In this document: positions 39,672 through 57,372 of the stretch, piece by piece
Numbering within the stretch: position 1 is the first letter of the stretch
Layout of the letters: every line of letters starts with the position of its first letter
Assembly (NCBI GenBank): GCA_001464815.1
Contig: LNDW01000015.1
Coordinates: 310,001 to 374,000, forward strand
DNA: 64,000 bases
Source: Betaproteobacteria bacterium Ga0077527
Lineage (GTDB): Bacteria > Pseudomonadota > Gammaproteobacteria > Burkholderiales > SG8-41
Direction of reading: 5' to 3'
Program-made: the position numbers and the translations under genes
The notes under the pieces: model-generated
Databases searched by the model: none
Told to the model about the DNA's origin: nothing
The model's input: only the letters and a program-made list of their open reading frames with translations

Positions 39672-40580
39672 TCAGGCCGGCAAAGCTTCCGGCGGCGCCA
39701 CCCCCGCCTGCTCACAGGAATTGGCGACGTCGCTGATGGTGACCCGCCGCATCACGCGCACCCAGCGCAGGTCGTCGAAGTCGGTGCCGCGGTGCATCGT
39801 GCAGCGGTTGTCCCACATCACCAGTTCGTTGGCACGCCAGCGGTGGGTATAGACAAACTGGCGCTGGGTGACATGGGCGATCAGCTCGTCGATCAGCGCG
39901 CGGCCTTCGTCATCGGGCATGCCCCAGATGCGTCCGGCATGTGAGGCGACAAACAACGACTTGCGGCGGTTCTGGGGAATCAGCCGCACCAGCATCTGCG
40001 GCACAGGCGGCAGGCGTTTGCGCTCATCCTCGTTGAATTCATGAAAGCCGCTGCGCCGGCGCGAGGTGGCGATCCAGTGTTCGGCGACAAGTCCTTCCAG
40101 CTTTTTCTTCATCGCCTCCGGCAGCGCATCGTAGGCGGCGCGCTGGTCGGCGAATTCGGTGTGGCCGCCGATCGGCACCACGGTCTCCGCATAGAGCAGT
40201 GAACACAGGCTGGGCAGGCGCTTGAAGGAACTGTCGGTGTGCCACAGCTTGTTGCCGGCCTTGTACATGCGCTGGCGGCTGTCCTCGCCCCAGATTTCAC
40301 CGGCGGCGTTGAGGTTGGAGATGTCGGCGAAGGCACCGCTGAAACGCGTCGGTGTCGCCTTCGGGTCCAGTGTGCGTTCTTTTTCCACCGGACCCCAGTG
40401 CCCGGAAAACGCCAGTTGCTGGTCTGTGGTGAGCTGCTGCTGCGGAAACACCAGCACCGCGTATTTCCAGAATGCCTGGCGAATGGCTTCGAGGTCTGCA
40501 CCCGAAAGCGGCAGCGAGAGATCAACATCGCCGATTTCGGCGACGAAATCCGGCGTGACCGGCATCACGGTGATGGGCAT
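39672..40580 (-). CDS. TauD/TfdA-family alpha-ketoglutarate-dependent dioxygenase
   Basis: 302 residues. The iron-binding triad is WHTDSSF near residue 113 (His and Asp) and CTMHRG near 262 (distal His); the ketoglutarate-binding Arg is in VRVMRRVT near 275. The sequence between them (GHTEFADQRAAYDALP) is typical of the TfdA branch, which cleaves aryloxyalkanoate or sulfonate ethers. The exact substrate is not predictable. The metallo-hydrolase gene lies 30 bases upstream on the same strand. Confidence 0.88.
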   Translation of the reverse strand: MPITVMPVTPDFVAEIGDVDLSLPLSGADLEAIRQAFWKYAVLVFPQQQLTTDQQLAFSGHWGPVEKERTLDPKATPTRFSGAFADISNLNAAGEIWGEDSRQRMYKAGNKLWHTDSSFKRLPSLCSLLYAETVVPIGGHTEFADQRAAYDALPEAMKKKLEGLVAEHWIATSRRRSGFHEFNEDERKRLPPVPQMLVRLIPQNRRKSLFVASHAGRIWGMPDDEGRALIDELIAHVTQRQFVYTHRWRANELVMWDNRCTMHRGTDFDDLRWVRVMRRVTISDVANSCEQAGVAPPEALPA

Positions 40581-43575: not shown

Positions 43576-44589
43576 TTATTTCCCGGTCTTGCGCCCGGCC
43601 AGCCTGAGTAATTCCTGGTGCAGGGCATCGGGAATCTGCAGGCCTGCAGCGCGGGCCTGCGCGGTCGCCTGCTGGCGGCGCGCGCCGGGCAGCCGCACAC
43701 CGGCGTCCTTGAGCATGCCGGACACCAGGTCTTCGATACGCGCCGCATAAACCTCGGCGCCGGCCAGTGCCGCCGGGTTGATCACGATCAGCGCGTGCCC
43801 GATACGCGGCTTGTTGCCGGGTTCGAAGTACGAATCATTTTCAACGCTCAGCGCGGCGCCGGTCAGCGCCACACACAGCGCCTCGACCATCAACGCCAGT
43901 GCGGTGCCCTTGACGCCACCGATCGCGGTCAGGCTGCCGGTCAGCGCGGCCTGCGCGCTGGTGGTGGGATTGCCGTCACGGTCCACTGCCCAGCCCAACG
44001 GAATCGGCTTGTCCTCCTTCGCCATCAGCATGATCTTGCCGCGGGTGACTTCGGTCAGTGAGAGATCGATGACGATCGGCGGCTTGTCCTGGCGCGGAAA
44101 AATCGCGGCAACCGGATTGGTGCCGAAAAACGCCTGCTTGCCGCCCCAGGCATTGATCGCCGCCGGCGAGTTGGTCAGCGCGATACCGGCCATGCCGGCT
44201 CCGGCGATCGGCGCGAGGTGGTAGGCCGCGGCACCGAAGTGATGGCTGTTGGTGACGCCGACAAAGGCCACGCCGTAGCGTTGCGCGCGCTTGATGCCCT
44301 CTTTCACCGCAAGCGCGGCAGCCGGAAAAGCGAGGCCACCGCCGGCGTCGATCAGCGCCGTGGCGCCGGCCTTGCGCAGCAGCTTCGGTTTGGCCTTGCC
44401 GTCGGCGCGGCCTTCGCGCAGATGTTGCGCATACAGGGCGACCCGCGACAGGCCGTGGCCGGAGAGGCCCTCGCAGTCGGCGGCGACCAGCGCCTGCGCG
44501 GTGGCCTCGGCCATTGTCTTGCCGGCGCCGGCGCGCTTGAGTGCACGCGTCGCGAGTTCGGTCCATTCGGTGATCGGCAGTGTGGCCAT
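43576..44589 (-). CDS. Ldh2/malate dehydrogenase-family oxidoreductase, possible sulfolactate dehydrogenase
   Basis: 337 residues of the NAD(P)-dependent Ldh2 family, unrelated to Rossmann-type lactate dehydrogenases. Markers are CEGLSGHGLSRVALY near residue 40, TNSHHFGAAAYHLAP with the catalytic His near 116, GTNPVAAIFPR and PLGWAVDRDGNPTT. This family includes ComC, the (R)-sulfolactate dehydrogenase, as well as malate, ureidoglycolate and lactate enzymes; the substrate here is inferred only from the SuyAB-like genes of the same run. Start at 44589 excludes a long shadow extension. Confidence 0.82.
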   Translation of the reverse strand: MATLPITEWTELATRALKRAGAGKTMAEATAQALVAADCEGLSGHGLSRVALYAQHLREGRADGKAKPKLLRKAGATALIDAGGGLAFPAAALAVKEGIKRAQRYGVAFVGVTNSHHFGAAAYHLAPIAGAGMAGIALTNSPAAINAWGGKQAFFGTNPVAAIFPRQDKPPIVIDLSLTEVTRGKIMLMAKEDKPIPLGWAVDRDGNPTTSAQAALTGSLTAIGGVKGTALALMVEALCVALTGAALSVENDSYFEPGNKPRIGHALIVINPAALAGAEVYAARIEDLVSGMLKDAGVRLPGARRQQATAQARAAGLQIPDALHQELLRLAGRKTGK

Positions 44590-44609
44590 TGCTGGTTCAA
44601 TCCGCTGGT

Positions 44610-45590
44610 TTAATCCACTGTGGTGCCGGATTTTTTGGCAACTTCCGACCACTTCGCCGCCTCCGAACGGACAAACGCGGCGAATTCGGCCGGTGTATTG
44701 CCGCTGGGTTCGGCACCCTCGCTGCGGATGCGCTGAATGACTTCGGGCGACTTCAGCGTCGCCACCCAGTCCCTGTAAAGGCGCTCCTGGATCGGCGCCG
44801 GGGTTTTCACGGGGACAAAGAGGCCGTTCCATTGCAGCGCGATGATGCCCTTGAAACCCTGCTCCTCGATCGTCGGAACATTCGGCATCACGTTCGAGCG
44901 CACCCGATCAGCCACCCCCAGACCGCGCAGACGCCCGGCACTGACCTGGGGCGCCGCGACCGGCATCACGACAAAGGCCACCTGCGATTCGCCGGTGAGC
45001 AGCGCCACGGAAGCCGGCGCCGCACCTTTGTATGGCAGATGGTTGATGCGGGTGCCGGTGGTCACGCGCAGGAGTTCCATCGCCATGTGCGACATGGTGC
45101 CGGTGCCGGCCGAGGAGTAATCCAGTGCATTGGGCTTGCCTTTGGCCAGCACCACCAGATCCTTGACGGCCTTGACCGGCAGCGCGGGATGGGAGACCAG
45201 CGCGAAGGGGTAGGAGGAGGCCATCGAGATCGCGGCAAAATCCCTGACCGGATCGAAATTGATCTTTTTGAAAATCGCCGGGCTGATCGAAATCGAGGAA
45301 TTGGCGAAAAACACCGTGTAGCCGTCCGCCGGCGCCCTGGCGACGATCTCGGCGGCGATGTTGCCGCTGGCGCCGGCACGGTTGTCGACCACCACCTGCT
45401 GGCCGAGTTGCTGTGCATACCGCTGCGCGATGATGCGAGCCACCACGTCACTGCCACCGCCGGCGGGGAACGGCAGCACCATGCGGATGCTGCGGTTGGG
45501 AAATTCCTGCGCTGACACAGGCAGAGCCGCAGCCAAGATTGTTACGATCACTACGGATGCGCGCAGGGCGCTGCGGTTCAGGGCAGTCAT
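44610..45590 (-). CDS. Bug/TctC periplasmic substrate-binding receptor
   Basis: 326 residues. Signal VVIVTILAAALPVSAQ; mature FPNRSIRMVLPFPAGGGSDV, VDNRAGASGNIAAE and HLPYKGAAPASVAL. GGAGGAG is placed well before the ATG at 45590. It lies 72 bases after the flavoprotein gene and 20 bases before the Ldh2-family gene. In the sulfolactate clusters I recall from Chromohalobacter, a tripartite tricarboxylate carrier is the suggested importer, so a receptor here fits. Confidence 0.9.
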   Translation of the reverse strand: MTALNRSALRASVVIVTILAAALPVSAQEFPNRSIRMVLPFPAGGGSDVVARIIAQRYAQQLGQQVVVDNRAGASGNIAAEIVARAPADGYTVFFANSSISISPAIFKKINFDPVRDFAAISMASSYPFALVSHPALPVKAVKDLVVLAKGKPNALDYSSAGTGTMSHMAMELLRVTTGTRINHLPYKGAAPASVALLTGESQVAFVVMPVAAPQVSAGRLRGLGVADRVRSNVMPNVPTIEEQGFKGIIALQWNGLFVPVKTPAPIQERLYRDWVATLKSPEVIQRIRSEGAEPSGNTPAEFAAFVRSEAAKWSEVAKKSGTTVD

Positions 45591-45662
45591 GAAAACTCCT
45601 CCGGGAGCAGTGGTTTGAAGCGGATGCGCAGTCTCGCCCGCCGCGTCCGAAAAATCAAACGC

Positions 45663-47393
45663 TCAGGCGGGCACCGCAGTCTCGGGCTTGAGCAGGCTGT
45701 CGCCGGGCTTGACGCGGGTGAACTTCACCGGCCTTGTCTCGATGCTGAAGCGGCCCTCCTGCCAGCCGACGCAGGTGTAGCGTGAATTCTCGAGGTCGCG
45801 CACGCCGGGATGGTCGGCGCGGTAATGCGCACCGCGCGAATCACCACGCGCCATCGCCGCGAAGCGGATCGATTGAGACACCAGCACCAGATTTTTCAGG
45901 TTGAGCCAGTCGTGCCAGGTCAGGTTGAAGGCGCGGGTGGCGCCGTCGATGCCCACCGCATCGAGCCGTGTGTCAAGTTCGTTGAGCAGGCCGTCGGCGC
46001 GTTCCAGCGATGCGGCGTCGCGGATGATGCCGACGTCATCCCACATCACGTTGTACAGCGCCTCGCGGATTTCGTTGAGGTCGCCGCCGCGGCGGGAAAA
46101 CGGCGCCATGCAGCGCGCCACCGCGGCATCGATCGCGGCCTGATCGGGCGCGCGCAGTTCGCCGTTCGCGCGGACCCAGCCAGGCATCACGTCACCGGCG
46201 ATGCCGCCGAACACCGTGGAGTTGGCGACACCGTTGCCGCCAAGACGGTTGGCGCCATGTACGCCGCCGGAGTCCTCGCCGGCGACAAACAGTCCCGGCA
46301 GGTCGGTGGTGCAATCGGTCCTGAACACCACGCCGCCCATCATGTAGTGCGCGGTCGGCACCACGTCGGCGAGCCCGCCGACGAGGTCGAAACCGCAGTC
46401 GGCGCAACGCTCGACCATACCCTTGAATTCGCGCCGCACCATCACCGGATCGAGGTGACGCATGGTGATGTAGAGGCCGCCGCGCGGACCGACGCGGCCG
46501 GCGCGCATTTCCTCGTACATGCCGCGGCTGACGATGTCGCGCGTGGCGCGTTCATTGCGCGGGTCGTAGTTGTGCATGAAACGCTCGCCGTCGCCGTTAA
46601 GCAGGTGGCCGCCGGCGCCGCGCAGGCCCTCCTCGATGATGGTGCCGGTGATGCGGGTGTCGGCGCCGGCAATCAGGCCGGTCGGGTGGAACTGCACCAT
46701 CTCCATGTCGCGCAGCATCAGCCCGCCGCGCAGCGCCATCGCCATGCCGTCGCAGCTCTTGTCGCCGGAGGGTGTATGGTACTTGTACATGGTCGGGCCG
46801 CCGCCGGTGGCGAGCAGCACCGCCTTGGCCTGCACGAACACGAACTCACCCGTGCGCATGTCGATCATCAGCACGCCGGAAATCGCCGAACCGTCCCTGG
46901 ACTTGATGAACTCGACCGCGCGATGCTCTTCCAGGCGGTCGATGCCGCGCGCCCACACCTGCTCGGCAAGTCGGTTGATGATTTCGATGCCGGTGAGATC
47001 GCCCTTGTGCACGGTGCGGTCGAAGGTCTGCCCGGCGAATGCCTTCTGGTGAATCGTGCCGTCCGGGTTGCGGTCGAAAAAGCAGCCCAGTTCGTTCTCG
47101 AGTTCGTGCACACGCTCGACCGCGGTCTCGACCAGCATCCACGCCAGGTCCTGGTCGGGCAGCCATTTGCCGCCTTCGATGGTGTCCATGAAATGGCGTT
47201 CAACGGAGTCACCCTCGGCCAGCGCGACGTTGTAGCCGCCCTGCACCATGCGCGTGCAACCGCTTTTGCCGAGGAGGCCCTTCACCGCGACGGTGATGGA
47301 GAGCTGCGGGTTGTGCTGGTGCGCATGCAGCGCCGCGAACAGACCGGCGCCGCCGGAGCCGAGGATCAGAATGTCGGTTTGGATGGTTTTCAT
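45663..47393 (-). CDS. Succinate dehydrogenase/fumarate reductase-like flavoprotein subunit
   Basis: 576 residues. ILILGSGGAGLFAALHA near residue 8 binds the FAD ADP part; LLATGGGPTMYKYHT, MVQFHPTGL, the catalytic-Arg region (RGGLYITMRHLDP) and TAHYMMGGVVF near 340 are the flavoprotein landmarks. Where covalent flavoproteins have Ser-His-Thr, this one reads KSGCTRMVQGGYN, so by eye the flavin-linking His is Cys and FAD may be non-covalent. Its iron-sulfur and anchor partners lie 5-7 kb upstream, separated by sulfatase, Bug and fumarase genes. The start at 47393 has no clear ribosome site. Confidence 0.85.
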   Translation of the reverse strand: MKTIQTDILILGSGGAGLFAALHAHQHNPQLSITVAVKGLLGKSGCTRMVQGGYNVALAEGDSVERHFMDTIEGGKWLPDQDLAWMLVETAVERVHELENELGCFFDRNPDGTIHQKAFAGQTFDRTVHKGDLTGIEIINRLAEQVWARGIDRLEEHRAVEFIKSRDGSAISGVLMIDMRTGEFVFVQAKAVLLATGGGPTMYKYHTPSGDKSCDGMAMALRGGLMLRDMEMVQFHPTGLIAGADTRITGTIIEEGLRGAGGHLLNGDGERFMHNYDPRNERATRDIVSRGMYEEMRAGRVGPRGGLYITMRHLDPVMVRREFKGMVERCADCGFDLVGGLADVVPTAHYMMGGVVFRTDCTTDLPGLFVAGEDSGGVHGANRLGGNGVANSTVFGGIAGDVMPGWVRANGELRAPDQAAIDAAVARCMAPFSRRGGDLNEIREALYNVMWDDVGIIRDAASLERADGLLNELDTRLDAVGIDGATRAFNLTWHDWLNLKNLVLVSQSIRFAAMARGDSRGAHYRADHPGVRDLENSRYTCVGWQEGRFSIETRPVKFTRVKPGDSLLKPETAVPA

Positions 47394-47406
47394 AAAGTCA
47401 AAACTC

Positions 47407-47496
47407 AGCCACAGAGGACACAGAGAGCACAGAGGAAACCCCAACAACCAGTCCGTGCTTTTGATGTTCTCTGTGAACTCTGTGCCCTCTGTGGCT
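47407..47496. repeat. CTCTGTG-type inverted repeat
   Basis: Left arm 47407-47436 reads AGCCACAGAGGACACAGAGA and on; right arm 47466-47496 reads GTTCTCTGTGAACTCTGTGC and on to CTCTGTGGCT. The arms are imperfect complements of each other across a 29-base loop. Elements of this CTCTGTG type are scattered between genes in many bacteria. It lies between fumarase beta and the flavoprotein gene and could form an RNA hairpin that lowers expression of the downstream gene. Confidence 0.75.
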
Positions 47497-47514
47497 TGCA
47501 GTTGAAGTTGATGT

Positions 47515-48126
47515 TCAGGATTTCACACCCAGTGCGGCCAGCACGCCGGCGCGCTTGTCCTTCGCCGCGGCATTGACCTCGGTATAAAGGCTGCCGCCGT
47601 GGGAATCCATCGCCACCAGCAGCGGGCCGAAGCCCTTGATGCGGAATTTCCACAGCGACTCGGGATTGAGATCATCGAGGTCGACCTCCTCGATCTGCTC
47701 GATCCAGGTGGTCTCCAGCGCCGCGGTGCCACCGATGATTGCAAGATAGACGCCGCCGATGTCCTTGAATGCCTTGGCCGATGCCGCGAACAAACCACCC
47801 TTGCCGATGATGATGCGCACACCATACTGCGCCATCAGCGGCTGGGTGAAGCGCTCCATGCGCGCACTGGTGGTGGTACCGATGCAGATCGGCGCGTAGC
47901 CGGAGGGATGCTCCATCGTCTCGCCGACCCATTTGACGTTGGGGGCGGTATGCACCACGGCGTGCCCACGCATGTCGAAGCGCGTCTTGCGACCATGGTC
48001 GAACATGTGAATCTGTGTGGCGTCACGGATACCGAACAAGGTGTCGTGCAGGGTGACGGTGTCGTTGACGCGCAGCTTGCGAATCTGCTCCTCGCTCGCC
48101 GGCATATGGATTTCATAATGGGCCAT
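47515..48126 (-). CDS. Class I fumarate hydratase/L-tartrate dehydratase, beta subunit
   Basis: 203 residues matching the C-terminal swivelling domain of class I fumarases. DTLFGIRDATQIHMF, HTAPNVKW, GTTTSARMERFTQPL and the IIGKGGLF segment are characteristic. Together with the alpha subunit at 48142 it makes an iron-sulfur hydro-lyase adding or removing water on fumarate/malate or tartrate. The 15-base spacing to the alpha gene shows one operon. Confidence 0.88.
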   Translation of the reverse strand: MAHYEIHMPASEEQIRKLRVNDTVTLHDTLFGIRDATQIHMFDHGRKTRFDMRGHAVVHTAPNVKWVGETMEHPSGYAPICIGTTTSARMERFTQPLMAQYGVRIIIGKGGLFAASAKAFKDIGGVYLAIIGGTAALETTWIEQIEEVDLDDLNPESLWKFRIKGFGPLLVAMDSHGGSLYTEVNAAAKDKRAGVLAALGVKS

Positions 48127-48141
48127 CTTGGTGTCCGTAGC

Positions 48142-49017
48142 TCAGTATCCGTATTCCAGGCCCTGCGGCGTGAAGGTGGCGCGGGCGCGCCGCGCCGAAT
48201 GGCACTGCATGTTCACCGCCACCGGGTTCATCGTGATGTGTGTCGCCGCGGTCTCGACGTGCACCGCAAAGGCAGTCGAATCACCACCCAGCCCTTGGGC
48301 ACCGACACCCAGCTTGTTGACCACGGCGGAAAGCTCGGCCTCGAGCTTTGCACCTTCAGGGTCTTCGCATTTTGTGCCCAGCGGCCGCGTCGCAGCCACC
48401 TTGGACAGGTGCACGCAAAGATCGGCGGTGCCTCCGACACCAACGCCGACAATCACCGGCGGGCAGCTCTTGCCGCCGGCATCAAGCACGCAGTCGATGA
48501 CAAAGGTCTTGATTGCATCGATGCCATCGGCGGGGATCGCCATCTTCAGCCAGGAATTGTTTTCCGAACCCGAGCCCTTGGGAATCATCTCTATCGACAG
48601 CGTTTCGGAATTGTCCGAAAAATCGATGTTGATCACCGGCACGTGGCGGCCGCCGGAGGTGTGCAGGTTCTTGCGCGTGGTCGGATGTACCACCGAGGAA
48701 CGCAGCGGGTGCTCCTGGGTGGCACGGGTGCAGCCGCCGACGATGGCCTGCTTCAGCGCGTGGCCGTCCACCTCGACACCGCTGCCGATGACCACGTTGT
48801 AGATCGGAATGCCGGTGTCCTGGCACAGCAGGTTGGTGTTGTCCTCGGCGACCCTGATGTTGCGGATCATGGTGCCGAGTATCGCCTTGCCGGTGGCGTT
48901 GGTTTCAGCCTGGTCGAGTTGCTGAAAACCCTGCTTGATATCAGGCGGCAGCATCTTCAATGCCCTGATATAAAGCTCCTTGCACGCCTCTTCCACCTGC
49001 TTCAGATCAAGCTTCAA
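48142..49017 (-). CDS. Class I fumarate hydratase/L-tartrate dehydratase, alpha subunit
   Basis: 291 residues, N-terminal domain of class I fumarase. Three 4Fe-4S cysteines are seen: NLLCQDTGIPIY near residue 65, GGKSCPPVIVGVG near 184 and NMQCHSARRARA near 271; the substrate-binding GCTRATQEHPLRSSVVHP block is near 95. Fumarase and tartrate dehydratase cannot be separated by eye. It follows a Bug gene by 41 bases on the same strand, consistent with uptake of a C4 hydroxy acid. Confidence 0.88.
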   Translation of the reverse strand: MKLDLKQVEEACKELYIRALKMLPPDIKQGFQQLDQAETNATGKAILGTMIRNIRVAEDNTNLLCQDTGIPIYNVVIGSGVEVDGHALKQAIVGGCTRATQEHPLRSSVVHPTTRKNLHTSGGRHVPVINIDFSDNSETLSIEMIPKGSGSENNSWLKMAIPADGIDAIKTFVIDCVLDAGGKSCPPVIVGVGVGGTADLCVHLSKVAATRPLGTKCEDPEGAKLEAELSAVVNKLGVGAQGLGGDSTAFAVHVETAATHITMNPVAVNMQCHSARRARATFTPQGLEYGY

Positions 49018-49058
49018 TGCCGCATCCTCGCTGACAGTTTTGCTGCACGACCGGCCAT

Positions 49059-50024
49059 TTACTTCACCTGCAGGCCGCGCTCCTTGATGATCTTTGCCCA
49101 GCGCGCCGATTCCGATTTGAGGTCACGCGCGAACTCCTCCTGCGAATTGCCGACGGTGACCATGCCGATTTCAGTCACGCGCTTGCGCAGGTCCGGGCTT
49201 TGCAGCGCCTTGATCGTGTCGGCGTGCACCTTGTTGATCACCGCCTTCGGCGTGCCGGTGGGCACCATGAAACCGAACCAGCCGAGGTTCTCGAATCCGG
49301 GCAGCGTTTCCGCCACCGCCGGCACATTGGGCAGCTGCGGCGAACGCTCCTTGCTGGTCACCGCCAGTGCGCGCAGCTTGCCGCCGTTGACCTGGTTGAT
49401 CGCCGCCGACAGATTGGGCGTGACAAACTGGATCTGGCCACCGACCAGATCTGTGATCGCAGGACCCTCACCCTTGTACGGGATATGAGTGACTTCGATA
49501 CCTGCGGTGTAGATGAAGTTTTCCGCGGCAAGGTGGGTCTGGGTGCCGATGCCGGCGGAACCGAAGGTCATCGACTTCGGTTTGGCCTTGGCCATGGCGA
49601 TCATTTCCTTCAACGTCTTTGCCGGATTGCTCGGGTTGACCACAATGGCCTGCGGTCCGCTGGCGACATTGGTGATGCCGACCAGGTCCTTCTCCGGGCT
49701 GAACGGCATCTTGGCGTACATGTGCTGGTTGGCGGTGACAATGGAGCCCGAGGTCAGGAACAGCGTGTAGCCGTCGGGCGTCGCCCTCGCTGCAATCTCG
49801 CCGCCGATGTTGCCACCGGCGCCGGCGCGGTTATCAACCACCACCGGCTGCCCCCACAGCTCGTTCAGCTTCTGCGACACCAGCCGGGCGACGATGTCGG
49901 TGGCGCCGCCCGGGGAGAACGGCACGATCACACGTACCGGGCGGTTGGGATAGGCGGCGTCGGCAGCCTGCGCAGCAGGCACTGCCAACAGGCTGGCGGC
50001 GATCATCATCAGCATCTTGTTCAT
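49059..50024 (-). CDS. Bug/TctC periplasmic substrate-binding receptor
   Basis: 321 residues. Signal MLMMIAASLLAVPAAQAA; mature YPNRPVRVIVPFSPGGATDI, VDNRAGAGGNIGGE and HIPYKGEGPAITDL. Placed between the sulfatase and fumarase alpha genes, it is one of two receptors in the long minus-strand run, so the pathway may handle two related ligands. Confidence 0.9.
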   Translation of the reverse strand: MNKMLMMIAASLLAVPAAQAADAAYPNRPVRVIVPFSPGGATDIVARLVSQKLNELWGQPVVVDNRAGAGGNIGGEIAARATPDGYTLFLTSGSIVTANQHMYAKMPFSPEKDLVGITNVASGPQAIVVNPSNPAKTLKEMIAMAKAKPKSMTFGSAGIGTQTHLAAENFIYTAGIEVTHIPYKGEGPAITDLVGGQIQFVTPNLSAAINQVNGGKLRALAVTSKERSPQLPNVPAVAETLPGFENLGWFGFMVPTGTPKAVINKVHADTIKALQSPDLRKRVTEIGMVTVGNSQEEFARDLKSESARWAKIIKERGLQVK

Positions 50025-50110
50025 CGGCTTCTCCTCTTTATGGTTTATGCCGGATCGCGGGGCGACCCCTGCGAATCAAGATACCCGACACATCGGTGTG
50101 CAGCAACCGC

Positions 50111-51508
50111 TCACAGACCCAGCGCATCAGCGGCGAGTTTGCGCAACTCGCGGCTGAGTTTGTTGCGCAGCGGCTTCGCGGCCGGCCGGTGCGCGATGTT
50201 GACCAGCTCGTACGGATCCTTCTGCAGGTCGTACATTTCATCGAGCTCGCCGTTGCGTGCGCGATTGACCCAGTGGATGTACTTGTAGCGGTCGGTGCGC
50301 ACCGCCTTGTAGCTCATGCCGACCAGCCAGGGATAGGCGTTCTCGGCCCAGTATTCGCAGAGCAGCGACTTGCGCCAGCCGCCGCGGCGCCCGGCAATCA
50401 GCGGCCACAGGGATCGGCCCTGGACATGTTTGCCAGGCTTGCCGCCGGCAACTTCGATCAGGGTCGGCGCGATGTCCTGCAGGATCACCAGCTCGCGCAC
50501 GCGGGAGCCGGGCTTGATGGTTTTCGGCCAGCGGATCAGCAGCGGCGCGCGGATGCCCTCTTCGTACGGGAAGCGGCGCTCCGGCCCGAGGCCGTGCTCG
50601 CCGAAAAAGTAGCCGTTGTCGCCGAGGAACAGGATCACCGTGTTGTCGAGCTCGCCGGTCTCCTTCAAGGCTTCAAACAGCATGCCCACACCCTCGTCCA
50701 CCGCGGCCATCATCGCCGCGCGCAGGCGGATCTCCTCCTGCTTTCCGGAGTGAATCGCGTCGTGCATGATTTTCGAAGCCTCGGTCTTGCGCAGCGCCAC
50801 GGCCTCGGTCCACACCGGCTTGTGCTTGAGGAATTCGGTGGGTTTCTGCATGTTCGGTTTTTTCGGGAACACGCAGCCCTTGTAGAGGTTCTCGTGGCGC
50901 TTCGCCGGCCGATAACCGTCCATCCGGAAACTGCCGTCTGCTGCCTGCTCGGCATCGGGATGCACCGCTTTGTGCGCAAACCACAGTGACCACGGCTTTT
51001 TCGATTTGCTCTTCGCGCGGCCGCGGATCCACTCCGACGCCATGGTGTTCATGATGTCGGTGACGTAGCCCTTGTGCTGGACGTAGGTGCCGTTCTCACA
51101 GAGTTTCGGATCGTAGAGGCTGCCGTGGCCGTCGTAAGCCACCCAGTGGTCATAGCCCGGACGCGGCTTGCCGTCGTTGCCCATATGCCACTTGCCGATG
51201 TGCGCAGTCTGGTAACCGAGGCGCTGCAGTTCGAGGTGGTAGTTGGGCAGGCGGTGGCTGGCGAGGTCGCGCGCGACGTTGTCGATGATGCCGTGGCGGC
51301 TGGCGTACTGCCCGGTGAGGATCGAGGCGCGGTTGGGCGAGCAGATCGAGGTGGTGTGGAAGGCGCGGTCGAACATCACGCCTTCGTGAGCGATGCGGTC
51401 GATGTGGGGCGTCTTCATGTAGGGATGGCCGCCGGCACCGAATTCGTCGAAGCGCAGGTCATCGACCAGGATCAGCAGGATGTTGGGTTTTTTCGCGGTT
51501 TTTTTCAT
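50111..51508 (-). CDS. Type I sulfatase (formylglycine-dependent)
   Basis: 465 residues. NILLILVDDLRFDEFGAGGH near residue 9 gives the paired Asp for calcium; TSICSPNRASILTGQYASRHG near 55 contains the CxPxR motif whose Cys is converted to formylglycine; GKWHMGN near 104 and LFLGDNGYFFGEHGL near 297 complete the site. It hydrolyses sulfate esters. No signal peptide is visible, so it is likely cytoplasmic. It needs a formylglycine-generating enzyme, not in this window. Position inside the run with the SuyAB-like genes suggests an organosulfur substrate. Confidence 0.88.
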   Translation of the reverse strand: MKKTAKKPNILLILVDDLRFDEFGAGGHPYMKTPHIDRIAHEGVMFDRAFHTTSICSPNRASILTGQYASRHGIIDNVARDLASHRLPNYHLELQRLGYQTAHIGKWHMGNDGKPRPGYDHWVAYDGHGSLYDPKLCENGTYVQHKGYVTDIMNTMASEWIRGRAKSKSKKPWSLWFAHKAVHPDAEQAADGSFRMDGYRPAKRHENLYKGCVFPKKPNMQKPTEFLKHKPVWTEAVALRKTEASKIMHDAIHSGKQEEIRLRAAMMAAVDEGVGMLFEALKETGELDNTVILFLGDNGYFFGEHGLGPERRFPYEEGIRAPLLIRWPKTIKPGSRVRELVILQDIAPTLIEVAGGKPGKHVQGRSLWPLIAGRRGGWRKSLLCEYWAENAYPWLVGMSYKAVRTDRYKYIHWVNRARNGELDEMYDLQKDPYELVNIAHRPAAKPLRNKLSRELRKLAADALGL

Positions 51509-51545
51509 TGCATCTCCTCAGACGCCCGGACGGGCACGCAACACA

Positions 51546-51923
51546 TCAACCCAGGTTCAGGGCAAAGGCCAGACCAAAGGCCAGGGACAGGCCCGCAGCC
51601 ACCGCCAGCAAGGACTTCTGCCACTCGCGCCAGTCCAGGAATTCGATCAGCAGCAGGCGCGCGCCTCCAGCCATGTGCGCGGCGAGCAGCAGCACCAATC
51701 CGGTCTCGGCAAATTTCACCAGCGGGTTCTGCGTCCAGGCGAGAAAACCATCAAGGCCGGCTGCACCGTGGAAAGCCTGACCCAGTGCCCAGAAATGCAG
51801 CGGCAGGAACAGCGTCAGCAGCAGGCCGGAGAGCCGGTGCACGATGAACGCCCAGTATGCTGGATGGTTGCGCGCGCGATAGTCGTTTTTCATGCCTGGG
51901 GTGTGGATGCCTGCCGCGCTCAT
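51546..51923 (-). CDS. SDH-like membrane anchor subunit
   Basis: 125 residues with three hydrophobic helices. NHPAYWAFIVHRLSGLLLTLFLPLHFWAL near residue 19 resembles SdhC, where HRLSG and the following His contact quinone and haem. The start at 51923 overlaps the stop of the other anchor gene by four bases and has GGAGG before it. It should anchor the complex in the inner membrane and pass electrons to quinone. Confidence 0.78.
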   Translation of the reverse strand: MSAAGIHTPGMKNDYRARNHPAYWAFIVHRLSGLLLTLFLPLHFWALGQAFHGAAGLDGFLAWTQNPLVKFAETGLVLLLAAHMAGGARLLLIEFLDWREWQKSLLAVAAGLSLAFGLAFALNLG

Positions 51924-52270
51924 GCCGGACCTCCGCCGAACACCGCAAACACCGCACGCAAGCCCCACAGCGCCAGCGCGATGCCGAAGGCCGTGAGCAG
52001 CAGATTGGTCGCGCCGCCGCGCCAGCCCAGGGTCTCGCCAAGAATGGTGCGCAGGCCGATCGGCGCGTGCACCGACACTGCAATCACGAATAGTGTGTAG
52101 AACGCGAACCAGGCCACGTTGCCCTGGGTGCGACCGAGGATTTCAGCACCGGAAAGACCGCTGCGCACGGCGAGGATCATGGTGATCAGATGCACCACCA
52201 CGCACAGCGCGAGCACCATCGCGCTCATTCGCTGCGCCCCCCACAGCAACACCTCAGAACGCCGGCTCAA
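51920..52270 (-). CDS. SDH-like membrane anchor subunit
   Basis: 116 residues, three helices. LALCVVVHLITMILAVRSG near residue 20 has a haem-type His and HAPIGLRTILGETLGW near 68 a second candidate ligand; this matches small anchors of Burkholderiales SDH-like complexes. The start is TTG at 52270 with GGAG seven bases upstream. It lies 46 bases after the iron-sulfur subunit across an AT-rich motif. Confidence 0.76.
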   Translation of the reverse strand: MSRRSEVLLWGAQRMSAMVLALCVVVHLITMILAVRSGLSGAEILGRTQGNVAWFAFYTLFVIAVSVHAPIGLRTILGETLGWRGGATNLLLTAFGIALALWGLRAVFAVFGGGPA

Positions 52271-52296
52271 CGTTGCTCTCCACTGAGAATATTTCG

Positions 52297-52327
52297 TAAC
52301 TTATTGTTTTTAAACATTAAATTTTAC
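52297..52327 (+). repeat. AT-rich dispersed motif, copy 6
   Basis: TAACTTATTGTTTTTAAACA then TTAAATTTTAC, overlapping the stop codon of the iron-sulfur subunit on the other strand. The second half has diverged from the consensus. Confidence 0.5.
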
Positions 52328-53030
52328 CGCTCAACGTGGCCGACAGCACCGCACGCTTCAGCCCGGCAATACCTGCCGTCGGCGACAGGCCCTTGGGGCA
52401 ACGCTCGGTGCAATTAAGATGGGTGTGGCAGGCGTGGCAGCCGGCGTCGCCCGCCACCGCGGCAAGCCGCTCCGACTGGGCGGTATCACGCACGTCGTTG
52501 ACCAGGGTCCAGGCACGATTAAGTGCGGCCGGTCCGAGGTAATCCTTGTTCCAGCTCACCACATCACAGGCGCTGTAGCAGACGCCGCAGCCGATACATT
52601 CGATGCCGGCATCCACACGCTTGCGCTCTTTCGACTCCGGAGACACCCGCTCAAACTCGTCCTTGCGTGTCTTGCTGCCGCTGAAACGGCCGCGTGCCTT
52701 CGCCCACTTGTCGAAGAATTCGCGCATGTCGGTGACCAGATCCTTGATCACCGGCAGATTGCGCAGCGGCGCGATTTCCACGCTGCCGTCCTCCGCCACC
52801 TTGTCGACATGGGTGCGGCAGGTCCAGCGTGAACGGCCATTGACCGTCATCGCGCAGGAACCGCAGACACCGACACGGCAGGCGAAACGGTAGGCGAGTG
52901 TCGGGTCGCATTTGCGCTGGACGTAGGTCACCACGTCGAGCACCGTCTGGCTTTCCTGGCGCGGGACTTCGAATTCCTGGAAGGCGCCGTTCTCGGCGCC
53001 GCGCCAGACCTTGACTTTGAGCGTTTGCAT
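52317..53030 (-). CDS. SDH/fumarate reductase-like iron-sulfur subunit
   Basis: 237 residues. The 2Fe-2S ligands lie in FACRVGVCGSCAMTV near residue 49 with the fourth Cys in WTCRTH; ECIGCGVCYSAC near 145 binds a 4Fe-4S cluster; CHTHLNCTERCPKGLSP near 201 completes the 3Fe-4S and 4Fe-4S sites. An extra CHAC pair precedes the last motif. It carries electrons between flavoprotein and membrane subunits. 25 bases after the ThDP enzyme gene. Confidence 0.9.
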   Translation of the reverse strand: MQTLKVKVWRGAENGAFQEFEVPRQESQTVLDVVTYVQRKCDPTLAYRFACRVGVCGSCAMTVNGRSRWTCRTHVDKVAEDGSVEIAPLRNLPVIKDLVTDMREFFDKWAKARGRFSGSKTRKDEFERVSPESKERKRVDAGIECIGCGVCYSACDVVSWNKDYLGPAALNRAWTLVNDVRDTAQSERLAAVAGDAGCHACHTHLNCTERCPKGLSPTAGIAGLKRAVLSATLSGKI

Positions 53031-53055
53031 GTTGATTTGAATTCCAATGTGTCCG

Positions 53056-54708
53056 TTACGCAGGCAGCGTCACCGTCGGCGCGGCAATACGCTGGATCAT
53101 CACGTTGACACAGGCCGGCTTGCCGCTCGCCAGCGCGCGTTCGAGTGCGGGTTTCAGCTCGGCGGCACGGGTCACCAGTTCACCGTGGCCACCGAGGGCC
53201 GCGACCACCTGATCATAACGTGTGGCCAGCAGCTCGAGGCCATGAGCACGTTCCCGGCCGTAGCTGCGCAACTGGATCTGGTATTCGGCATTCCAGCAGG
53301 TATCGTTGCCGATCACCACCACCATCGGCACACCTTCACGCACCGCGGTGTCGAACTCCATCAGGTGAAAACCCGCCGAACCGTCGCCCATCACCGCGAT
53401 CACGGTGGCGCCGTTGCGCGCCATACGCGCGGCGAATGCAAATGGGATGCCACTGCCAATCGAACCGCCGACACCGTTGATCACACGCACCGGTGCATTG
53501 ATGCAGGCCTGCGCCCACTGGCCGATCTCGCCGCCATCGGCAACAAAAACTGCTTCCGGCGCGGCGGCCAGCGCGGCCTGCACCGCGCGGCCGAGTTCGA
53601 CCGGATGCACCGGACCGCTGCCGCCGCTGTCTTTGTCACTGTCGATGTCCTGCCAGGCCGCAGGCCGGTGGTTCACTGCGGCAGTAACGGCATCAAACCA
53701 CTGCCGGTTTGCATTTTTTGTGGTGGTTGCCGTCGTCAGCTTGCGCACTGCAGCCGCGGTGTCGGACTGCGCTGAAAGCGCCACACGCGCCGCGCCGATA
53801 TTGCCCAGCGAACGTTGCAACACTTCAGCATCGGGATCGATGACCACAAAACGGCAATCCGCGGCCACTGCCGGCGCCTTCGCAAAACGCAGCGTGAAAT
53901 CGGGTTGTTTGCCGATGAGCACAATCAGGTCGGCTTTCGCCAGCACACCGGCAAAGGCACCCAGCGACGGATCATTGACGCCGCGCGGGCTTTCCATCAC
54001 CAGCGCCGGCACGCCGGTCGCTGCGGCCAGCGGCCTGACCAGACCTGCAAGCGGCGCCTGCGCCATCACCGGGCTCAACAAAATCAGTGGCCGCGCCGCG
54101 CCCTGCAATTGCGCGAGCAGCGCAGCGCAGGTCTGGTCATCCAGCACCTGCTCTGCCGCCCGGAAGTCAGCCGCGGCTGCGATCAAACTTTCGCCGTTGT
54201 CGAGCTTCGCATCCAGCAGGTTGGCCGGCAGGCTCAGATGCACCGGACCCGGCCGGCCTGAGCGTGCAATACGGCAGGCCCTGGCAATATCAGCGCCCAT
54301 GTCCTCGGCTTTGGCCGCGGTCCACGAGGCCTTGCACAGCGGTGCCGCGATATCGGCCTGACGCATTTCCTGGAAGGCACCACGGCCCAGTTCATTGAGC
54401 GGCGCATGGCCGGAGACCAGCACCAGCGGCGACTCGGCCGCCAGCGCGGTATACAGCGCACCCACGCCATTGGCATGGCCGGGCCCGCCAGTCAGCCAGA
54501 CGATGCCCGGCTCGCCGGTAAGCCGTGCCCAGGCATCGGCCATGTGCACGGCCGCACCTTCGTAGCGGACATGGGTAATCGAAAGCTTCGCCTCGATCGC
54601 CGCATCGTAAAGCGGCATGATGTGATTGCCGGACAGCGCAAACACCCGCCGCAGGCCCGCCGCGGCCAGCGAACGGCAGAAAATGTCGGCACCACGCAAT
54701 GAACTCAT
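53056..54708 (-). CDS. Thiamine-diphosphate-dependent enzyme, acetolactate synthase-like
   Basis: 550 residues in the three-domain ThDP layout: pyrimidine-binding N-terminal part with the catalytic Glu in VRYEGAAVHMADAWAR near residue 50, a central domain, and the ThDP-magnesium motif GDGSAGFHLMEFDTAVREG...N near 445. Members decarboxylate or ligate 2-keto acids. It is shorter than sulfoacetaldehyde acetyltransferase (Xsc) and its N-terminus does not look like Xsc, so I give no product. In this run it could act on a keto acid made by the Ldh2-type dehydrogenase. Confidence 0.8.
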   Translation of the reverse strand: MSSLRGADIFCRSLAAAGLRRVFALSGNHIMPLYDAAIEAKLSITHVRYEGAAVHMADAWARLTGEPGIVWLTGGPGHANGVGALYTALAAESPLVLVSGHAPLNELGRGAFQEMRQADIAAPLCKASWTAAKAEDMGADIARACRIARSGRPGPVHLSLPANLLDAKLDNGESLIAAAADFRAAEQVLDDQTCAALLAQLQGAARPLILLSPVMAQAPLAGLVRPLAAATGVPALVMESPRGVNDPSLGAFAGVLAKADLIVLIGKQPDFTLRFAKAPAVAADCRFVVIDPDAEVLQRSLGNIGAARVALSAQSDTAAAVRKLTTATTTKNANRQWFDAVTAAVNHRPAAWQDIDSDKDSGGSGPVHPVELGRAVQAALAAAPEAVFVADGGEIGQWAQACINAPVRVINGVGGSIGSGIPFAFAARMARNGATVIAVMGDGSAGFHLMEFDTAVREGVPMVVVIGNDTCWNAEYQIQLRSYGRERAHGLELLATRYDQVVAALGGHGELVTRAAELKPALERALASGKPACVNVMIQRIAAPTVTLPA

Positions 54709-54815
54709 TTTTCGGCGTCCTCAAACCACCATCTGTCCGTTGACACCACCAGACAGATCATTAAAAGATCCAGACTGACTGAAACCGGACGAGCGGCGCA
54801 ATGGCAAGGAGCACA

Positions 54816-54835
54816 GCGTCCCCCAAGGGGACTTG
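54816..54835. repeat. Single hairpin related to the 27-base tandem repeat
   Basis: GCGTCCCCCAAGGGGACTTG is the reverse complement of a unit very like those at 33983-34090 (AAGTCCCC..GGGGGACGC). It lies in the 222-base gap between the SuyB-like and ThDP genes. Confidence 0.65.
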
Positions 54836-54891
54836 TTGCACTGCGCGCAGCAGCCGAGACCTATCCCGGAGAGTAGGCGAGGCTGCGAGCA

Positions 54892-54920
54892 CTGCGCGAC
54901 GCCGCCATTGCGTCGCGCAG
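54892..54920. terminator. Strong hairpin just after the SuyB-like gene
   Basis: CTGCGCGACGC pairs perfectly with GCGTCGCGCAG over 11 bases with a seven-base loop, eleven bases beyond the SuyB-like stop on the minus strand. There is no U-run, so it may be a Rho-dependent end, an mRNA-stabilising stem or an attenuation point that divides SuyAB from the genes downstream. Confidence 0.5.
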
Positions 54921-54930
54921 CCGGTTTCAA

Positions 54931-56100
54931 TTAAGCGCTTTCGTAGAGTCGGGTCAGCACAAACTCCCTATGCCCCAGCGCCTCGGCGGCGGTCAGCCGG
55001 CCGTTGCAGGTGCGCAGCATGACTTCGATCAGTTCGTCGCCGGTCTGGTCGAGGTTTTTCTCACGCTGCAGCAGGCCCGAGCAATCGTAGTCGACGTGTT
55101 CACTCATGGTGCGCACGGTGCGCGGATTCGCGGTGAGCTTCACCACCGGCACGATCGGATTGCCGATGACATTGCCCTGCCCGGTCGGGAACAGGTGCAC
55201 TACATAACCGGATGCCGCGCACAGCGTGACCATTTCCGCCGCGGCGGAGGACGAATCCATGAACCACAGACCCGGCTTGGTTGGCTCTTCGGCCTTATCG
55301 AGCACACCGATGACCTTGCACTTCTTGCCGATTTTCTGGATGTTGCCCAGCGCTTTTTCCTCGATCGTGGTCAGGCCGCCGGCGATGTTGCCCTTGGTCG
55401 GCTGCGAATCGGAGAGGTCGCTGGTTTTGTTTTTCTCGACAATGGCCTGGTAACGATCAAACATGCGCATGAATTCCTTGCGCACTTCAGGCGTTGCGCA
55501 GCGGTCGGCAACAATGTTTTCGCCGCCGGTGATTTCCGTGGTTTCACCAAAACACATGGTCACACCCAGCGGCTCGAGCTTGTCGAAGGCGCTGCCCACG
55601 GTCGGGTTGGAACCGCAGCCCGAGGTCGTGTCGGACTCACCACACTTGGTCGACACCCACAGGTCGCTGATCGGACATTCGACGCGCTGCAGCTCGGAGG
55701 CCCACTGCACGTATTCCTTGGCCACCTTGGACGCGCGCATGATGGTGTCGTGGTCGCCGTGCAGCTCGATGCCGAAGCCGGTGACCGGCTTGCCGGTCTT
55801 GGCTATGCCATCGACCACTTTTTTCGCCCAGCCTTCTTCAATACAGATCACCACCACGGCCGCGACATTGGGATTGGCGCCGGCGCCGATGATGGTGCGG
55901 AAATGCAGGTCCAGGTCGGCGCCGAACTGCAGCCGGCCATAGGGATGCGGGATCGCAATCGCGCCCTTGATATTGTTGGCCACGGCTTCGGCGGCGGCGT
56001 TCGACAAGTCGTCCACCGGCAGGATCAGGACGTGGTTGCGGACACCAACACGGCCGTTCTCGCGGCGGTAGCCCATGAATGTGGTTTTGCTGTTGATCAT
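54931..56100 (-). CDS. suyB: (R)-sulfolactate sulfo-lyase beta subunit-like (UxaA/altronate dehydratase superfamily)
   Basis: 389 residues. [20 protein letters not shown] near residue 10 is the opening of the large UxaA/GarD domain. Cysteines for an iron-sulfur or metal site are seen in [29 protein letters not shown] near 155 and [19 protein letters not shown] near 305. The length, the [20 protein letters not shown] block and the split from the SAF subunit agree with SuyB as I remember it; altronate dehydratase is usually one chain. It would cleave sulfolactate to pyruvate and sulfite. A GGAG precedes the ATG at 56100. Confidence 0.72.
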
Positions 56101-56138
56101 CTGTTAACTCTCCGGAATAAGTCGGTGCGGGTTGGTCG

Positions 56139-56180
56139 GCGGCGTTTTAGCAGCGGCGTTTTGCCAGCGGCGTTTTACCA
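56139..56180. repeat. Three 14-base tandem repeats
   Basis: GCGGCGTTTTAGCA, GCGGCGTTTTGCCA and GCGGCGTTTTACCA stand head to tail in the 86-base spacer between the SuyA-like and SuyB-like genes. A partial fourth unit runs into the SuyA-like stop. No function is evident; slipped-strand variation in spacing is possible. Confidence 0.8.
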
Positions 56181-56186
56181 GCGTCC

Positions 56187-56468
56187 TTACCAACGTTTGG
56201 TTTTAATGTTGTGCACGTGGGCATGTTCGCCGACCTTGATGTCAGCCACCGCCTTGCCGATATCGAAACCATATTTGATGATGGTGTCGCCCTTCTTGAT
56301 GTCACAGAGCGCCGCCTTGTGACCGATGGGGATGTCATTAAGCGCCTTGACCTTGATCGTGGAGTCGTCTTCCATCACCCAGCCGATCATTTCCTGTCCG
56401 GCCTTGATGCCTTCGATGACGGCCACGCCGACCATGTCTTTTTTGTCGTGTACCAATATGTGAATCAT
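56187..56468 (-). CDS. suyA: (R)-sulfolactate sulfo-lyase alpha subunit-like (SAF domain)
   Basis: 93 residues, one SAF domain. ILVHDKKDMVGVAVIEGIKA opens it, GWVMEDDSTIKVKALNDIP follows, and it ends HAHVHNIKTKRW, the ending I recall for SuyA. The His residues of the last motif are expected to bind metal or substrate together with the beta subunit. AGGAGG before the ATG at 56468 is strong. First gene of the run facing the GntR-type regulator, with an operator-like palindrome in between. Confidence 0.72.
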   Translation of the reverse strand: MIHILVHDKKDMVGVAVIEGIKAGQEMIGWVMEDDSTIKVKALNDIPIGHKAALCDIKKGDTIIKYGFDIGKAVADIKVGEHAHVHNIKTKRW

Positions 56469-56563
56469 TGCGCCTCCTGAATATGTAAACGCTGCGGTGG
56501 ACCACAACCCGGCATCAAAATCCGGGGTGCAGGGTCGCAGATGCTACCTCCGGTATTTCCGGC

Positions 56564-56581
56564 AGGTCAACTATATGACCT
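56564..56581. promoter_or_regulatory. Operator-like palindrome in suyA-regulator gap
   Basis: AGGTCAACTATATGACCT: perfect six-base arms AGGTCA and TGACCT around six A/T-rich bases, 95 bases from the SuyA-like start and 38 bases before the regulator start. Size and symmetry fit the site of a HutC-type GntR dimer. A repeat of CTATATGA directly follows in the same area. Confidence 0.6.
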
Positions 56582-56619
56582 ATATGAATCCTGAAAAGCC
56601 ATGCTAGACTGCGCCGGCG

Positions 56620-57372
56620 ATGAACACCGTCCACCCTGACAGCCTGACTGCCAACCCGCTGTACCGCGAAGTGCAATGGCGCATCACCCGCGCGCTGGCC
56701 GCAGGCGAATGGAAGCCGGGCGAGGCCATCCCCAGCGAAAGCCGGCTGGCGGCGCAGTACAAAGTGTCGATCGGCACCATCCGCCGCGCCATCGACGAAC
56801 TGGTCGCCGGCCGCATCCTGGTGCGACAGCAGGGGCGCGGCACCTTTGTTGCGACGCACACCGAAGACCGCACGCTGTTTTACTTTTTCCACGTGGTCGG
56901 CAAGGACGGCAGCCGGGAGTTTCCGGAGTCGGAGCTGCAGGATTTCCGCAAGGAACGCTCGGACGAGGCCGACGAGCGGGATTTCGGCCTGGCGCGGGGC
57001 ACCCGCGTCGCCCGGGTTCGCAACCTGCTCAAACTCGGCGGCCTGCCGGTGGTGCTCGATGACATCACGGTACCCACCGAGGAATTTCCGAAGCTCGACG
57101 AAGCCACTTTCCGCAAGCGCGAAGGCACCATCTACGGCCTTTACCAGGCGCGTTACGGGGTCAACGTGGTGCGCATCAGCGAACGGCTGTCGGCGGCGCA
57201 TCCGCCGGCCAACATCGCCGCCATCCTCGGCATGCACGCAAGCCAGCCGGCATTGCAGATGCGCCGCATCGCCTACAGCTACAACGATTCACCGGTGGAA
57301 TACCGCCGCAGCTGGATCAACACCGCCGGGCACGAATACCTGAGCGACCTGTGGAAAACCGCGGCACGGTGA
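56620..57372 (+). CDS. GntR-family transcriptional regulator, HutC/UTRA type
   Basis: 250 residues. The N-terminal winged helix YREVQWRITRALAAGEWKPG, then IPSESRLAAQYKVSIGTIRRAIDEL near residue 40 and VRQQGRGTFVATH, is the GntR DNA-binding domain; residues about 90-245 form the UTRA ligand domain, ending RIAYSYNDSPVEYRRSWI. It is divergent from the SuyA-like gene and so the likely controller of the 43.6-56.5 kb run, usually a repressor released by the substrate or an intermediate. Confidence 0.88.
   Translation: MNTVHPDSLTANPLYREVQWRITRALAAGEWKPGEAIPSESRLAAQYKVSIGTIRRAIDELVAGRILVRQQGRGTFVATHTEDRTLFYFFHVVGKDGSREFPESELQDFRKERSDEADERDFGLARGTRVARVRNLLKLGGLPVVLDDITVPTEEFPKLDEATFRKREGTIYGLYQARYGVNVVRISERLSAAHPPANIAAILGMHASQPALQMRRIAYSYNDSPVEYRRSWINTAGHEYLSDLWKTAAR

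Follow-up and report, generated by a model that had tools for sequence, protein, structure and literature searches.

A conserved gene cluster that joins complex II-like and fumarase-like genes to sulfolactate sulfo-lyase probably encodes 3-sulfopropionate catabolism in Burkholderiales

The 64,000-nucleotide stretch of contig LNDW01000015.1 from Betaproteobacteria bacterium Ga0077527 that we analyzed (the window) carries a 13-gene run on its minus strand that begins with the subunits of a putative (2R)-sulfolactate sulfo-lyase (SuyAB) and includes a complex that resembles succinate dehydrogenase (SDH) and a pair that resembles class I fumarase; this run probably encodes a pathway for 3-sulfopropionate breakdown that mirrors, with sulfonates as intermediates, the citric acid cycle from succinate to malate. 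From 5' to 3' on the minus strand, the order is SuyA, SuyB, a thiamin diphosphate (ThDP)-dependent enzyme, SdhB, SdhD, SdhC, a sulfatase, a Bug solute receptor, fumarase alpha, fumarase beta, SdhA, a second Bug receptor and an Ldh2-family dehydrogenase (Ldh2); the gene for a HutC-type regulator is divergent, on the plus strand. The earlier note on this DNA had placed HutC opposite suyAB and named the genes on the other strand, and we find all of them in the order it gave. Our reading draws on gene content, conservation, the clade membership of SuyB and SdhA and a conserved candidate operator, and we infer the substrates and reactions of the SDH-like, fumarase-like, Ldh2 and ThDP enzymes and the action of the regulator.

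Each sulfonate in the proposed route has a C4 counterpart, that is, 3-sulfopropionate corresponds to succinate, sulfoacrylate to fumarate, sulfolactate to malate and sulfopyruvate to oxaloacetate; by this analogy, the complex II-like, fumarase-like and Ldh2 genes beside SuyAB fit the series step by step. After uptake that would involve the Bug receptors, the SdhABCD-like membrane complex would oxidize 3-sulfopropionate to 3-sulfoacrylate and pass the electrons to quinone, and the fumarase-like alpha/beta pair would add water to yield 3-sulfolactate. If the hydration follows the spatial course of ordinary fumarase, the product would be (R)-sulfolactate, which has the geometry of L-malate (its Cahn-Ingold-Prelog label differs because CH2SO3 outranks COOH) and is the substrate of SuyAB, by which it would be cleaved to pyruvate and sulfite. 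A side branch may proceed by way of sulfopyruvate and sulfoacetaldehyde, with Ldh2 oxidizing (R)-sulfolactate to sulfopyruvate in a ComC-like step, followed by the ThDP enzyme and the Xsc that is encoded elsewhere in the genome. The fumarase and the SDH-like complex point to a substrate that is probably shifted upstream of sulfolactate, most simply to 3-sulfopropionate.

By family matches, the SDH-like complex consists of a flavoprotein, an iron-sulfur subunit and two membrane anchors: SdhA (45663–47393; PF00890/PF02910), SdhB (52317–53030; TIGR00384, above cut-off), SdhC (51546–51893, with the start at 51893 or 51923; PF01127 Sdh_cyt, 48.2 bits) and SdhD (approximately 51920–52270, start uncertain; Sdh_cyt, 33.6 bits against a cut-off of 25.8, on 51920–52300). 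The complex had been recognized in the earlier note, although without itemizing the two Sdh_cyt anchor genes. The window SdhA, a putative 3-sulfopropionate dehydrogenase, is 36% identical to the ordinary SdhA of the same genome (L081), and none of the listed plasmid sdhA genes is closer to it than that. We assembled 118 distinct SdhA homologues, dropping sequences shorter than 450 residues and identical duplicates; the 115 that share at least 45% identity form the clade to which the window SdhA belongs, and no two of their cores are identical. All 115 members carry EEG in the substrate loop (the strict pattern finds 114, and Rhodococcus RHA1 has GAVLEEG), and all 115 have GCTRM, with Cys at the position of the flavin-linking His; Escherichia coli FrdA and the ordinary SdhA of the genome have TEG in the substrate loop and SHT at the flavin site. 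We take the Thr of TEG to be a substrate contact and the His to be the site of flavin adenine dinucleotide attachment in complex II; these canonical residues of succinate dehydrogenase are absent from the window SdhA clade. The Cys of GCTRM may indicate a cysteinyl or a non-covalent flavin. The clade resembles complex II (succinate dehydrogenase/fumarate reductase) in its four-subunit layout and in retaining the HPTG, RDxVS, HY and NRLG residues, but differs in having EEG for TEG, Cys for the flavin-linking His, only approximately 36% identity and a sulfonate gene context. Elsewhere, the same genome encodes the ordinary SdhA as well as FumC and Xsc (both above cut-off); we judged a housekeeping role for the SDH-like and fumarase genes of the cluster unlikely, given that the ordinary enzymes are already available.

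The alpha subunit of the fumarase-like pair (48142–49017), of the type that we designate type A, scores 299 bits against NF004885 (cut-off 276) and also exceeds the TIGR00722 cut-off; the beta subunit (47515–48126; PF05683) falls just short of the TIGR00723 cut-off (138.9 bits against 145.15). The cysteines at CQDTG, SCPP and QCH, presumably ligands of an iron-sulfur cluster, are present, and no second copy of alpha was found in the genome when alpha was the query. In the score of its alpha subunit and in its cysteine motifs, the pair resembles the two-subunit class I fumarases, but it is found in a sulfonate context in a genome that also has FumC. The beta subunit matches the L(+)-tartrate dehydratase model as well (133 bits, cut-off 264), as would be expected for a tartrate or hydroxy-acid pathway in which the pair is a tartrate dehydratase and SuyB is a dehydratase of the altronate/galactarate type; we regard this pathway as extremely unlikely, since alpha passes the fumarase cut-off and not that for tartrate dehydratase, SuyB lies outside UxaA/GarD (see the next paragraph), and the SDH-like complex would have no use.

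The large subunit, SuyB (54931–56100; PF20629/PF04295), is supported by its sequence as a relative of (2R)-sulfolactate sulfo-lyase. In a maximum-likelihood tree built on 34 of 60 SuyB homologues, 29 of the 34 rows, including the window SuyB and the hps-linked copy of Cupriavidus pinatubonensis, form a clade with 100/100 support; excluded from it are copies of UxaA type from Escherichia albertii and Variovorax, two from haloarchaea and the other family member that the genome encodes. Because the outgroup branches are long, we take from this tree only the exclusion of UxaA/GarD. Of 316 plasmid records, 13 match SuyB with at least 60% identity, and the listed identities then fall from 62.7% to 38.3%; the tree and this gap rule out a UxaA/GarD identity, and so the grouping with altronate or galactarate dehydratases by which the earlier note's assignment of SuyAB could have failed did not occur. 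The best plasmid match, 81.7% identical to the window SuyB, is from C. pinatubonensis HN-2 and adjoins hpsN and hpsO; SuyAB of C. pinatubonensis JMP134 is described as identified in the excerpts of PMC12890257. The small subunit, SuyA, is a separate open reading frame beside suyB (minus strand, 56468–56187), and this pairing is kept in relatives. A Pfam search gave no domain for SuyA, and it matches the galactarate dehydratase model TIGR03248 weakly and at its N-terminus alone (32.8 bits), so the label 'SAF' for this subunit is by resemblance.

The SDH-like and fumarase-like genes are the conserved core of this cluster variant. In 300 genomes of the order, SuyB (best copy with at least 75% identity; a few are contig-end fragments) occurs in 51 and the SDH-like SdhA (E-value of at most 1e-150 and at least 65% identity) in 39; 38 of these 39 genomes also have SuyB (Fisher p of approximately 1e-35, a value that, as do the other p-values given below, overstates independence because the genomes are related). 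In G211, the one SdhA genome that lacks SuyB, the contig starts at SdhB (L200). The two genes are also mostly close together: SuyB and SdhA are located within 20 kb on the same contig in 31 of the 38 genomes, on different contigs in six and far apart in one, with one of the links (G046) resting on a 66-residue piece of SuyB. For two of the different-contig genomes, G010 and G002, contig-end pieces show SuyB beside Sdh genes (L205 and L057); among the remaining unlinked cases, G138 and G158 have a fumarase of a second type, type B (L202 and L203), G098 and G228 have unlinked type A, and in G104 SdhA alone was seen.

We also collected 40 neighborhoods around SuyB matches, some of which end at contig edges. 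SdhB is present in 27 and absent from 13; both SdhB and fumarase alpha accompany SuyAB in 25, and in the two with SdhB alone the stretch ends there. This recurrence argues that the arrangement is not due to chance. A chance adjacency of several unrelated transcription units would be compatible with the gaps of 222 nucleotides between SuyB and the ThDP gene and approximately 120 nucleotides between beta and SdhA, and with the shuffled gene order in some relatives; this is very unlikely, given that SuyB and SdhA are within 20 kb in genomes from nine families of the order and in Methylobacterium oryzae, and approximately 20 kb apart in Rhodococcus RHA1. The gaps across the run are 15–222 nucleotides (the largest is 3' of SuyB), and a sequence scan of the minus strand found one terminator-like site within the ThDP gene, one within fumarase alpha and none between genes; overall, terminator-like sites are fewer than in shuffled sequence. 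The start codons were picked by hand; those of SuyA, SdhA and Ldh2 are downstream of the starts of the longest open reading frames.

The 13 neighborhoods without SdhB contain SuyAB and Ldh2, 10 of them with HutC, as would be the case if the window held a plain sulfolactate cluster with a redundant second SDH and fumarase that help to burn pyruvate. We consider that distinctly unlikely: the SdhA belongs to its own clade with an altered substrate loop and 36% identity to the ordinary enzyme, it is found beside sulfite exporters without adjacent SuyAB, and in two records it has its own operator-like site. The 13 SDH-negative loci include five from genomes with SdhA elsewhere (L045, L052, L056, L065 and a second copy, L072) as well as L055, which was scored negative despite short, weak matches to SdhA (42% over 92 residues) and beta (38% over 81 residues). 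A gene of the D-2-hydroxyacid dehydrogenase family, which we take to be SlcC-like, is found in 5 of the 27 SDH-positive and 10 of the 13 SDH-negative loci (p = 0.001). SlcC and ComC together invert (S)-sulfolactate to (R)-sulfolactate; the scarcity of the SlcC-like gene in SDH-positive loci would follow from a route that yields (R)-sulfolactate without an inversion step. The suyAB-slcC-comC clusters of the order share SuyAB (approximately 80% identity), Ldh2 and HutC with the window but usually contain the SlcC-like gene, and the hpsN-hpsO-suyAB cluster of C. pinatubonensis shares SuyAB (also approximately 80%), a Bug receptor and the operator; unlike the window, both kinds have their entry at 2,3-dihydroxypropane-1-sulfonate (DHPS) or sulfolactate, without an SDH-like complex or fumarase.

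The ThDP enzyme (53056–54708; PF02776 and PF02775, both above cut-off), a 2-oxoacid decarboxylase/lyase that may be a sulfopyruvate decarboxylase, is far below the cut-off of the Xsc model (143.9 bits against 676.4), and no sulfopyruvate decarboxylase model is among the best 25 of its 51 NCBIfam matches; its gene is found in 11 of 27 SDH-positive and none of 13 SDH-negative loci (p = 0.007). The ComC-like Ldh2 (43576–44589; PF02615) has L-sulfolactate dehydrogenase, NF040650, as its best NCBIfam family, yet with 204.2 bits against a cut-off of 500; the Ldh2 proteins of M. oryzae (163.6 bits) and the haloarchaea (340.2 bits) are likewise below this cut-off. The two Bug/TctC receptors are located at 49059–50024 (PF03401) and 44610–45590 (PF03401, 227 bits). 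The type I sulfatase (50111–51508; PF00884/PF16347), with CSPNR fitting the sulfatase motif CxPxR, has homologues with at least 70% identity in 7 of the 40 neighborhoods (L033, L034, L035 and L039–L042); this distribution rules it out as a core enzyme, and it is accessory to the cluster. The earlier note had suggested a new variant for sulfolactate or for a sulfated hydroxy acid: the SDH/fumarase core beside SuyAB agrees with the former, and the restricted occurrence of the sulfatase speaks against the latter. A TauD/TfdA-family dioxygenase is also encoded near the cluster (39672–40580; its score against taurine dioxygenase is 156 bits, with a cut-off of 313), and an 87% identical homologue sits 3' of recQ in L034.

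The regulator (56620–57372, plus strand; Pfam GntR and UTRA) has HutC as its best NCBIfam match (TIGR02018, 105.7 bits, cut-off 220), and a homologue is present in 33 of the 40 SuyB neighborhoods. Between it and suyA is an inverted repeat, GGTCATATAGTTGACC (56565–56580, minus strand), a candidate operator that overlaps the -35 element of a promoter-like site found by sequence scan (56570–56541, minus strand); HutC may control the whole run from this single site. The first pattern that we tried, GGTCA-N6-TGACC, matched one relative only and was dropped. The pattern KRTCATMTAKWTGAYY has one match in the 3.4 Mb assembly (91% complete), and this match is the site before suyA. Within 260 bases 5' of suyA, a looser pattern occurs at 33 of 43 loci, among them the hps cluster of C. 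pinatubonensis, compared with 0.9% of 20,000 random stretches; the count of 33 is not an independent test because the looser pattern was drawn from those regions, whereas the single genomic match of the stricter pattern and the sites before SDH units in L073 and L061 are independent of its derivation. In G064 (L061), one operator-like copy precedes suyA and another precedes a HutC-SdhBDC-Fum-SdhA unit; in M. oryzae, an operator-like site is 5' of a transporter-SdhB run, and the pattern was not found before suyA. These sites suggest that the SDH module and suyAB form one regulon; no operator-like site was found in the unlinked SDH stretches L201 and L204.

The SDH-fumarase module recurs at loci without adjacent SuyAB, where its neighbors are sulfite exporters and in some cases sulfite oxidases. 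We scanned genome contigs with an SdhA alignment of seven rows, headed by a Sulfitobacter sequence, and examined 80 of at least 564 confirmed relatives. SdhA is present in all of these 80 loci. Fumarase alpha is present in 79 of them (the exception, L169, stops at a contig edge) and is of type B, which is 31% (alpha) and 24% (beta) identical to the type A pair of the window; many of the loci are short, and 47 have a TauE-like exporter (at least 40% identity), 23 have TctA (at least 60%), nine have a weakly SorA-like protein (at least 28%) and two have SuyB. A NIPSNAP-family gene is beside the module in 8 of the 80 loci (e.g., L074:18353–18667 and L075:16135–16461), and an amidohydrolase-family gene (approximately 60% identity) is directly 3' of type B FumAB in Cupriavidus necator N-1, G138, G158 and Methylobacterium nodulans (L197:14300–15200 and L079:14688–15527; also L202 and L203). 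The 1.2 Mb contig L161, which bears the title Oceanobacillus sp. HTM 045, encodes an SdhA with 79% identity to that of Sulfitobacter and may be a mislabelled or mixed assembly.

Among the type B bearers is Roseovarius nubinhibens ISM (L117), with TauE, LysR, a tripartite tricarboxylate transporter (TTT) carrier, SdhBDCA and FumAB; its SdhA belongs to the same clade. For this organism, the excerpts of PMC11489063 cite a thesis (Mayer, Konstanz) for a route from homotaurine to 3-sulfopropionate, sulfoacrylate and sulfolactate. Its proposed intermediates, its SdhA clade and its two-subunit class I fumarase are those of our reading, but its fumarase is of the other type (alpha approximately 31%), and a search of its genome found Xsc and no SuyB. 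For 31 genomes with type B loci (32 were picked; L158 was left out), SuyB is present in 7 and Xsc in 26, with at least one of the two in 28 and neither in 3. The module may therefore feed different desulfonating ends; Xsc is common in such bacteria, so these counts support that view weakly.

Other lineages have further arrangements. M. oryzae has, in one run, the SDH module, a type A-like fumarase (66%), ThDP, TauE, SuyAB, SlcC-like, Ldh2 and GntR genes; on plasmid pRHL1 of Rhodococcus jostii RHA1, FumAB, SdhA and SdhB are 15–20 kb from Ldh2, SlcC-like and SuyAB genes, and no match to the anchor genes was found near the module. In two haloarchaea (L077:4485–11453 and L198:3437–11434), an UxaA-like pair, TauE and an argininosuccinate-lyase-like gene accompany SdhB and an SdhA of the same clade, possibly an archaeal version with a different hydratase. 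Sulfoacrylate is also formed and consumed in bacterial coenzyme M synthesis, by XcbC and XcbD; the haloarchaeal lyase matches XcbC (257 bits, cut-off 575) but is nearer argininosuccinate lyase (323 bits, above cut-off), and the corresponding enzyme of the window is a different one. On a plasmid of Pseudomonas sp. MPC6 (L075:12740–15899), SdhBDCA-FumAB is followed by a gene for a CoA-acylating methylmalonate-semialdehyde dehydrogenase (MMSDH; 695 bits, above cut-off) whose first base is also the final one of fumarase beta; TauE, a sulfate exporter and a sulfite oxidase are close by, and the stretch contains no SuyAB. This arrangement suggests a route in which sulfite would be released by hydration. 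C. necator N-1 likewise has a full-length MMSDH close to the module, and M. nodulans has a 75-residue match.

These loci allow a broader reading, one that we hold tentatively and consider doubtful: the SdhA clade would be a dedicated 3-sulfopropionate:quinone oxidoreductase of Pseudomonadota, Actinomycetota and haloarchaea for which three hydratases were recruited, that is, type A fumarase, type B fumarase (approximately 31% identical) and the haloarchaeal enzyme of the ArgH/FumC superfamily. Type A would yield (R)-sulfolactate, and type B would hydrate the sulfonate-bearing carbon; its product, malonate semialdehyde as the bisulfite adduct, would release sulfite without a desulfonase. Against the type B step are the sulfolactate route cited for R. 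nubinhibens, a type B bearer, in the excerpts of PMC11489063 and the absence of MMSDH (at least 50% identity) from all 80 of the other type B loci.

Several points weigh against our reading of the window run as a route for 3-sulfopropionate. The direction of the SdhA reaction is insecure, because Cys replaces the flavin-linking His in every clade member and FrdA variants that lack this His lose succinate oxidation; also, it is not obvious how a substrate-loop Glu would favor the binding of a sulfonate. Ldh2 is rarer in SDH-positive (15/27) than in SDH-negative loci (13/13; p = 0.004), and SuyB and SdhA are apart or on different contigs in 7 of the 38 genomes that have both. Among the proteins scanned around the window cluster, none was a sulfite exporter; TauE is present in 4 of the 27 SDH-positive and 1 of the 13 SDH-negative neighborhoods. 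The module does not always feed SuyAB, since 24 of the 31 type B genomes, R. nubinhibens included, lack SuyB. Finally, the same enzymes could act on sulfosuccinate or another succinate-like, sulfonated C4 acid, proceeding through sulfofumarate and hydroxysulfosuccinate to oxaloacetate and sulfite, the last step being a SuyAB-like elimination or spontaneous. Bug and TTT carriers often take di- and tricarboxylates, and this, together with TctA in the type B loci, would suit such a substrate; we think it rather unlikely, because SuyB groups closely within the C3-sulfolactate clade and the R. nubinhibens route, as the excerpts of PMC11489063 give it, begins with 3-sulfopropionate. No gene-level work on sulfosuccinate turned up in the open-access literature searched, among the matches listed.

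In agreement with the earlier note, no known suyAB cluster with SDH and fumarase genes turned up in that literature, among the matches listed; genes assigned to 3-sulfopropionate breakdown were also not found there, and may exist in print in subscription papers and theses, which are mostly outside it. 3-Sulfopropionate arises from the fermentation of sulfoquinovose and DHPS and from the use of homotaurine. In the excerpts of PMC11489063 and PMC12890257, its bacterial degradation is described as unreported except in a thesis, or the mechanism as unclear; the statement that bacterial degradation had not previously been reported apart from the thesis is from the excerpts of PMC11489063. Public records label the genes described here as succinate dehydrogenase and fumarate hydratase, labels by which pathway inference would be misled. 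The cluster offers specific, widely conserved candidate genes for aerobic 3-sulfopropionate breakdown, and it suggests how complex II and fumarase may have been re-used for a sulfonate.

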